This document shows, one piece after another, positions 39,822-41,992 of a stretch of 50,501 nucleotides of DNA; within the stretch, counting starts at the first letter, position 1; each line of letters opens with the position of its first letter. Source of the stretch: Actinomycetota bacterium (GTDB lineage Bacteria; Actinomycetota; Actinomycetes; Nanopelagicales; Nanopelagicaceae); the NCBI GenBank assembly GCA_009699375.1, contig WLOF01000002.1, positions 1 to 50,501 of the forward strand. Reading direction: 5' to 3'. The position numbers and the translations under genes are program-made. The notes under the pieces were generated by a model. That model had not been told where the DNA came from. It was given only the letters and a program-made list of their open reading frames with translations, and made no database searches.

Positions 39822-41261
39822 ATGCGTAGAGCCAAAATAGTTTGCACTCTAGGCCCAGCAGTTTCTAGTCAGAAGCAAGTAAATGCACTCATTGCAGCAG
39901 GCATGAACATGGCGAGATTAAATCTTTCTCACGGAAGCCATGAGGATCATAATTCTCACATTGCTTTTATTCGCCAAGGAGCTAAAGAGTTAAACCGCGC
40001 AGTTGCAATTCTGGTTGATCTTCAAGGTCCAAAAATTCGACTCACCCGATTTAGTACAGGACCTCACCTCCTGGCTGTCGGCGATATTTTCACCATTACA
40101 ACTGACGATATTGACGGAACAAAAGAGCGCGCAGGAACAACATATAAAGGCTTACCTGGAGATTGTAAAAAAGGCGATCGAATTCTCATAGACGATGGGA
40201 AAGTGACTGTTTCGGTTATTGATGTTTCCAAAACCGAAGTGAAAACAGAAGTAATTGAAGGCGGCATGATCAGTGACAACAAGGGGATTAATTTACCCGG
40301 AGTAGCCGTTTCTGTCCCAGCCCTTTCAGTAAAAGATATTGAAGATCTTAAATGGGGCCTCCGTGCTGGCGCAGATTTTATTGCACTCTCGTTTGTCAGA
40401 AGTGCGGAGGATTTACAAGATGTTCATAGAATTATGGACGAAATTGGAATTCGTGTTCCAGTTATTGCAAAAATTGAGAAACCCCAAGCAGTTGCTAATA
40501 TCGACAGCATTGTCGCTGCCTTTGACGGAATAATGGTTGCACGTGGAGATCTTGGAGTTGAACTTCCTATCGAAGAAGTTCCGCTTGTACAGAAGTTATG
40601 TGTCGAGAAAGCAAGAGAATCAGCGAAACCTGTGATTGTCGCAACGCAAATGCTTGAATCAATGATGAACAGTTCACGCCCTACGCGCGCTGAAGCAACG
40701 GATTGCGCTAATGCCGTATTAGATGGTGCAGACGCTTTGATGCTTTCCGGTGAAACCAGTGTGGGGCAATATCCCATTGAGGCAGTTGCGACTATGGCCC
40801 GAATCATCGAAAAAACTGAGGAAGGTGGGCTCCATCGAATTGCGCCATTACAACATTCACCAAAAACAACCGGTGGTGCAATCACGAGGGCAGCAGTAGA
40901 TGTCGGGCAAACAGTAGGAGCAAAATATTTAGTTGCCTTCACTCAGAGCGGTGACTCGGCAAGAAGAATGTCACGCCTTCGCTCCGGAATTCCTATTTTG
41001 GCACTTACTCCAGAATCGGGAACATTCAACAGGTTGGCACTGAGTTGGGGAGTCGAATCTATTTTGGCTCCAACTGTTAACCACACGGATGAAATGGTGA
41101 AGCAAGTTGATTCCATACTTATGTCGTCAGGAAGAGCCAGCATTGGCGAACTCATCATGATCGTTGCAGGTTCACCACCAGGAATCCCTGGCTCTACAAA
41201 TGCAATGCGTGTGCACCGAATTGGTGATGCTGTTGCAGGTGTTGCGCCTGCTTATCGCTGA
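39822..41261 (+). CDS. pyk: Pyruvate kinase
   Basis: RRAKIVCTLGPA, MARLNLSHGSHEDH, VPVIAKIEKPQAV, MVARGDLGVELP, ATQMLESM. Confidence 0.98.
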   Translation: MRRAKIVCTLGPAVSSQKQVNALIAAGMNMARLNLSHGSHEDHNSHIAFIRQGAKELNRAVAILVDLQGPKIRLTRFSTGPHLLAVGDIFTITTDDIDGTKERAGTTYKGLPGDCKKGDRILIDDGKVTVSVIDVSKTEVKTEVIEGGMISDNKGINLPGVAVSVPALSVKDIEDLKWGLRAGADFIALSFVRSAEDLQDVHRIMDEIGIRVPVIAKIEKPQAVANIDSIVAAFDGIMVARGDLGVELPIEEVPLVQKLCVEKARESAKPVIVATQMLESMMNSSRPTRAEATDCANAVLDGADALMLSGETSVGQYPIEAVATMARIIEKTEEGGLHRIAPLQHSPKTTGGAITRAAVDVGQTVGAKYLVAFTQSGDSARRMSRLRSGIPILALTPESGTFNRLALSWGVESILAPTVNHTDEMVKQVDSILMSSGRASIGELIMIVAGSPPGIPGSTNAMRVHRIGDAVAGVAPAYR

Positions 41262-41300
41262 CCAGCGTCTCTCTTTTTAATCAGGTACACTCGCGTGCGC

Positions 41301-41373
41301 GCCTCGGTACTCCAACGGTAGAGAGGGCAGTCTCAAACACTGCATAGTGTCGGTTCGAATCCGACTCGGGGCA
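41301..41373 (+). tRNA. tRNA, anticodon CAA (Leu codon UUG) on a 73-nt class-I (short variable loop) body; CCA not encoded
   Basis: Hand folding: acceptor 41301-41307/41366-41372 (7 bp with GU pairs), anticodon stem 41327-41331/41339-41343 (GCAGT/ACTGC), loop CTCAAAC 41332-41338, variable loop 5 nt, T arm GTCGG-TTCGAAT-CCGAC, discriminator A73; TACACT -10 candidate at 41286-41291. Confidence 0.85.
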
Positions 41374-41374
41374 C

Positions 41375-41992
41375 ATGAGCACACAAACATCGAATGAATT
41401 AAATGTTCCTAGTGCTGGCCTGGCAAGAATCTTGGTCGCAGAAGACGAAACGTTGATTCGTATGGATTTAGTCGAGATGCTCAACGGTGCCGGATATCAA
41501 GTTGTGGGCGAAGCAAAAAATGGGGAAGAAGCAATTGCATTAGCGCGTGAGCTCAAACCGGATTTGGCAATTCTTGATGTGAAGATGCCAGTACTGGATG
41601 GGATTTCAGCAGCAGAAGAAATTATTTCCATTTCTCCTGTCCTGATGCTTACAGCATTTAGTCAAAAAGAATTAGTAGATCGTGCGCGAGATGCCGGAGT
41701 TATGGCGTATGTAGTTAAACCTTTCTCAATTAATGATTTATTGCCGGCAATGGAAATTGCTATGAGCAGGCACAAACAAATGGTTTCTCTTAGCGAAGAA
41801 GTTGCAGAGCTTTATGAAAGACTTGAAGTGAGAAAACTTATTGACAAGGCAAAAGGGATTTTAATGGCGGCCCTCAACCTCACAGAACCGCAGGCATTTT
41901 CTTGGATACAAAAAGCGGCTATGGATCGGCGACTATCCATGAAGGAGATTGCCAACGCGGTAATTTCCCCTACCGATATCCCCGAGCGGTAA
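41375..41992 (+). CDS. pdtaR: ANTAR-output response regulator, PdtaR-like
   Basis: ARILVAEDETLIRMDLVEML receiver, LDVKMPVLDG phospho-Asp, VVKPFS, C-terminal ANTAR (ALNLTEPQAFSWIQKAAMDRRLSMKEIANAV). Confidence 0.9.
   Translation: MSTQTSNELNVPSAGLARILVAEDETLIRMDLVEMLNGAGYQVVGEAKNGEEAIALARELKPDLAILDVKMPVLDGISAAEEIISISPVLMLTAFSQKELVDRARDAGVMAYVVKPFSINDLLPAMEIAMSRHKQMVSLSEEVAELYERLEVRKLIDKAKGILMAALNLTEPQAFSWIQKAAMDRRLSMKEIANAVISPTDIPER

Follow-up and report, generated by a model that had tools for sequence, protein, structure and literature searches.

A class-I leucine tRNA conserved across Actinomycetes and its junction with pdtaR in Nanopelagicaceae

Results

A tRNA gene between pyk and pdtaR

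The window, a stretch of 50,501 nt of actinobacterial DNA, carries a tRNA gene on its forward strand (41301–41373) between two genes of the same orientation. Upstream lies an open reading frame (39822–41261, +) that we take, from our knowledge of the protein family, to be pyk, encoding pyruvate kinase, and that keeps this position in most relatives. Downstream lies pdtaR (41375–41992, +), which encodes a response regulator receiver domain followed by an ANTAR RNA-binding domain (Pfam PF00072 and PF03861). Both neighbours agree with a preliminary description of this DNA. One encoded base, C74 (41374, +), separates the tRNA from the pdtaR start codon, and a −10-like hexamer, TACACT (41286–41291, +), matching TANNNT, is found 15 nt upstream of the tRNA.

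ARAGORN calls a single tRNA in the whole window, tRNA-Leu(caa) at 41301–41374, and the Rfam tRNA model RF00005 covers 41301–41373 over its full length (52.1 bits, E = 2e-8). Read directly, the acceptor stem GCCTCGG/TCGGGGC contains G-U pairs at 4-69 and 7-66, and the T arm is GTCGG-TTCGAAT-CCGAC. The anticodon arm, GCAGT-CTCAAAC-ACTGC, has a canonical 7-nt loop that holds the leucine anticodon CAA (41334–41336, +; positions 34–36). The D arm (41310–41325, +) has a stem of only three pairs (CTC/GAG, 10–12 with 23–25), leaves C13 and A22 unpaired, and carries A14, A15, G18, G19, A20a and G21. The variable region, ATAGT (41344–41348, +), ends in U48, the tertiary partner of A15, and the discriminator base is A73. 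CCA is not encoded, so the 3′ end of the tRNA would be completed after processing. Thus, the canonical arms, CAA anticodon, 5-nt variable region and acceptor G-U pairs given in the preliminary description hold in every detail. The C13-A22 mismatch that it also reported is present but is no oddity, as 13.22 is unpaired in all four tRNA-Leu of the complete relative G021.

The variable region is 5 nt long in the window tRNA and in its relatives, well short of the arm of at least 10 nt that marks class II, so this is not a class-II tRNA. The fold energy of the locus is unremarkable by itself (z = −1.6), and the decisive evidence that the tRNA is real is its conservation.

Conservation across the class Actinomycetes

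The identical 73-mer occurs in 20 other genomes. Near-identical tRNA loci in named genomes point to a Planktophila-like actinobacterium of the lake-plankton family Nanopelagicaceae as the source of the window. A search of 60 related genomes found the tRNA in 34 of 36 members of its own family, Nanopelagicaceae, at 89–100% identity, and in other families of the class at 75–88% identity; the pyk-tRNA-pdtaR neighbourhood is retained in most of Nanopelagicaceae. More widely, a pattern scan with one genome per species gave at least 118 stretches of the class-I type. All 80 stretches among the matches listed are actinobacterial, including Streptomyces, Mycobacterium, Bifidobacterium, Nocardioides, Micromonospora, Pseudofrankia and Planktophila; mycobacterial homologues were also found individually. 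A strict pattern applied across the class was positive in 175 of 296 genomes, a lower bound because divergent members are missed, while the reversed-pattern control gave zero. The preliminary description had wondered about a conserved actinobacterial peculiarity, and these results bear this out. A search of plasmids for the class-I tRNA-Leu type returned no match.

A covariance model, for which we counted only matches above about 69 bits because the phylum search at E = 1e-5 also returns ordinary tRNAs, matched strongly in 33 of the 38 genomes that we sampled from the class. Strong matches also came from several families in other classes within the phylum; many others gave background scores only. 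With 12 candidates scored per genome, five of the 38 class genomes had no strong class-I match, possibly through a limit of the search or through real loss. Four of these five belong to the genus of G054, a genome with a bldA-like gene.

In 50 distinct named relatives, the acceptor, D and T pairs all form. The constancy of U48 and of the D loop in this set is partly by construction, as its members were picked with fixed bases, and we therefore judged covariation on free positions only. Two pairs that the search did not constrain, 10-25 and 11-24, do covary, with 10-25 appearing as G-C, C-G, U-A and A-U.

Contigs labelled as Bifidobacterium breve and as Streptomycetaceae metagenome-assembled genomes contain the tRNA in its Nanopelagicales version, closely followed by pdtaR in the same orientation; they are probably mislabelled or contaminated.

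Leucine identity and the decoding of UUG

The assembly to which the window belongs is 74% complete (0.95 Mb in 73 contigs), and we assembled tRNA sets for two complete relatives, G021 and G035, from Rfam matches and sequence stretches, obtaining 38 and 37 tRNAs, respectively. Each genome has four tRNA-Leu: those with CAA and UAA anticodons are class I (73 nt), and those with GAG and UAG are class II. Neither complete set contains a second CAA tRNA, of class II or otherwise, or any other decoder of UUR codons, so UUG and UUA depend on class-I tRNAs alone in these relatives. As our class-II YAA pattern is strict, the absence of a class-II CAA tRNA and the standing of the window tRNA as the sole CAA tRNA are statements about G021 and G035. 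Published streptomycete gene lists likewise have a single CAA tRNA per genome (PMC4932002). Not every genome has class-I forms of both UUR tRNAs: G054 has a class-II UAA tRNA beside its class-I CAA tRNA.

The core of the window tRNA carries a leucine signature. The combination of unpaired 13.22, A15-U48, A20a-G21 and A73 picks out exactly the four tRNA-Leu among the 38 tRNAs of G021; A14 also belongs to the D-arm part of this signature, and A73 is present in the window tRNA and in 20 of 20 aligned class-I sequences. In E. coli, leucine identity requires A73, A15-U48, G18G19 and A20a, and the variable arm is dispensable (PMC9976931); the window tRNA shares A14, A15-U48, G18G19 and A20a with its E. 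coli counterpart. Recognition without a long arm is also known for human mitochondrial tRNA-Leu(UUR) (PMC9976931).

We then compared the placement of UUG codons in alignments of the Nanopelagicales pyk and pdtaR products. The reference rows came from other actinobacteria and had their UUG and UUA codons masked; a column counted as conserved at 95% agreement or more among them. Every UUG in a strongly conserved column stood at leucine (132 of 132), and none fell in any of the 172 columns conserved for another residue. The overall distribution of UUG over columns resembled that of CUN codons. Finally, all 16 genomes checked have one gene for leucyl-tRNA synthetase (LeuRS); split matches in two of them represent one gene.

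The preliminary description had left open whether the gene encodes a non-canonical tRNA-Leu, a tRNA charged with another amino acid or a regulatory tRNA-like RNA. Charging by another synthetase, which would make UUG reassigned or ambiguous, would fit a short variable region that is atypical for leucine, and tRNAs of dual identity are known in Streptomyces (tRNA-ProX; PMC11415595). Against it stand the D-arm and A73 signature, the confinement of conserved-column UUG to leucine, and the lack of a second CAA tRNA; the sole alternative decoder of UUG, the UAA tRNA, is itself class I. We regard this account as very improbable. Even less credit is due to a regulatory tRNA-like RNA or a decaying gene outside translation. 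Its direct joining to a regulator gene, pdtaR, and its unexceptional fold energy would suit such a role. However, the tRNA is conserved almost perfectly in distant genera with compensatory changes in its stems, no other CAA tRNA exists in the complete relatives, and the same tRNA occurs across Actinomycetes without a junction to pdtaR; the leucine signature and the use of UUG for leucine speak against this option as well.

With its leucine signature, a single LeuRS, UUG read as leucine and no other CAA tRNA in the complete relatives, the gene encodes a leucine tRNA rather than another isotype or a regulatory RNA. We put the probability at roughly 0.93 that it is a working tRNA-Leu without a long variable arm that reads UUG and would be charged by the only LeuRS of the cell. 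The simplest account is that one LeuRS charges both structural classes of tRNA-Leu. In this scheme, LeuRS would recognise A73 and the core (A14, A15-U48, G18G19, A20a-G21 and the unpaired 13.22), not the variable arm, and the UAA sister tRNA, also class I, reads UUA and might additionally read UUG by wobble.

The junction between the tRNA and pdtaR

The ATG of pdtaR, at 41375, is separated from A73 by C74 alone. Among 46 unique Nanopelagicales loci, 40 have C74 followed directly by a start codon (CATG in 38, CGTG in 2), placing the start codon at a conserved tRNA 3′ boundary. Past the fifth base after A73, conservation in the 46 loci drops to about 30–60%, and the PdtaR N-terminus ahead of the receiver core ranges from 1 to about 30 codons. 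With the N-terminus this variable, the feature being held is the position of the start codon, not the protein.

All 94 tRNAs of three genomes have C at position 74, although CCA is encoded in only 27 of them. Processing in Streptomyces coelicolor severs the majority of CCA-encoding tRNAs between their two Cs (PMC4681348). A cut after C74, as in S. coelicolor, would free an mRNA that starts exactly at its AUG. The junction therefore suggests that a leaderless pdtaR mRNA could arise through 3′ processing of the tRNA.

In 26 of the 46 unique loci, a TANNNT hexamer begins 14–16 nt ahead of the tRNA, and the window sequence directly upstream of the pdtaR ATG contains none. Thus, the tRNA and pdtaR are probably transcribed as a unit from the tRNA promoter, with TACACT the probable promoter in the window; the tRNA would then make up the 5′ portion of this unit in Nanopelagicaceae. 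A scan with the sigma-70 consensus found no promoter at the tRNA.

Similar junctions, in which a tRNA is followed by C and RTG, precede other genes of the family. These join tRNA-Ala(UGC) to a cyclophilin gene, tRNA-Leu(CAG) to GDPD, tRNA-Pro(GGG) to a CDP-alcohol phosphatidyltransferase, tRNA-Arg(UCU) to an RNase T-type exonuclease, tRNA-Arg(UCG) to an Sbt_1 transporter, tRNA-Met to a homocysteine S-methyltransferase, tRNA-Leu(GAG) to a phosphoribosyltransferase, tRNA-Asn to an ACT protein and tRNA-Ala(GGC) to LeuRS. In 41 genomes, start codons after tRNAs fell 63 times at offset 1, 22 times at offset 2 and 19 times at offset 4. The Leu-CAA/pdtaR junction accounts for 29 of the 63 cases at offset 1, and the other 34 are at other tRNAs. 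As this excess outside the pdtaR case is moderate, we treat punctuation at the other junctions as a strong lead, not as a result.

We give roughly even odds to the proposal that one transcript in Nanopelagicaceae yields both the class-I tRNA-Leu and a leaderless pdtaR mRNA, a bacterial form of tRNA punctuation recurring at other junctions of the family. Alternatively, ribosomes could translate pdtaR from a transcript that is unprocessed or made separately, with the G-rich acceptor strand acting as a Shine-Dalgarno sequence and the one-base spacing reflecting genome compaction. GAGG or GGGG does lie 3–4 nt from the start codon, just before CAC-AUG, genomes in Nanopelagicaceae are small, and the excess at offset 1 for other tRNAs is modest (34 cases, vs. 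22 at offset 2 and 19 at offset 4). However, the G-rich strand is base-paired within the tRNA and would be removed by processing, offset 1 stays constant while the PdtaR N-terminus varies from 1 to 30 codons, and several comparable junctions elsewhere in the family lack the purine run. We consider this alternative unlikely.

If tRNA punctuation does operate here, the tRNA-pdtaR junction would parallel mitochondrial punctuation in a bacterium and would couple mRNA 5′ ends to tRNA maturation. As in mitochondria, where leaderless mRNAs are freed by tRNA processing, the start codon sits at the tRNA 3′ boundary. In contrast to mitochondria, the setting is bacterial, there is one junction per transcript, and the cut is predicted to fall after C74.

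Discussion

The window encodes a normally working yet structurally exceptional leucine tRNA, which would be charged as such and which is conserved across a large bacterial class. Reviews assign cytosolic tRNA-Leu to class II (PMC9976931, PMC7609411). For UUG codons, the rule fails in a large bacterial class to which Mycobacterium and Streptomyces belong, and many of its lineages depart from it for UUA as well. A single LeuRS would need to handle tRNAs of two structural classes, so that these bacteria offer a natural way to ask which identity elements are enough to specify leucine. On the practical side, isotype models may flag class-I tRNA-Leu as anomalies.

Canonical bacterial class-II tRNA-Leu shares with the class-I tRNA A73, A14, A15-U48, G18G19, A20a-G21, the three-pair D stem and the unpaired 13.22. 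The difference lies in the variable region, which is 11–15 nt in the class-II tRNA-Leu of the same genome and 5 nt in the class-I tRNA. Human mitochondrial tRNA-Leu(UUR) also lacks the long arm, reads UUR and is leucylated on the strength of A73 and A14 (PMC9976931), but it is organellar, has a partly unfolded anticodon branch and is served by its own mitochondrial LeuRS. In contrast, the actinobacterial tRNA is encoded on a bacterial chromosome and would share one LeuRS with class-II tRNAs.

Among open-licence papers, we found no dedicated description of class-I tRNA-Leu as a class-wide actinobacterial exception. The type is nevertheless already implicit in known data. In M. tuberculosis, only tRNA-Leu-2, -3 and -5 are named as long-armed (PMC11541572), which implies short-armed isoacceptors without describing them as a conserved type.

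A tRNA-Leu(UAG) with a short loop from a mycobacterial tRNA cluster (PMC6582537) is likewise class I, as are the tRNA-Leu of Felixounavirus, cyanophages and Streptomyces phages, which have the same CCAA..GG.AGAG-type D arm. These cluster and phage tRNAs are supernumerary, lie in arrays and include UAG anticodons, whereas the actinobacterial tRNA is a single chromosomal gene with no substitute. We count the Felix O1-type phages of enterobacteria, whose class-I tRNA-Leu has a D arm like that of the window tRNA, in favour of the leucine reading. Felixounavirus carries three anticodons (UAG, CAA and UAA), cyanophages UAA, and Streptomyces phages CAA and UAG. A scan of viral contigs gave at least 116 stretches and, among the 80 matches listed, the anticodon is UAA in 57, CAA in 17 and UAG in 6. 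Class-I tRNA-Leu is common in phages, including the Felix O1 type, and the host LeuRS must charge these tRNAs if they are used.
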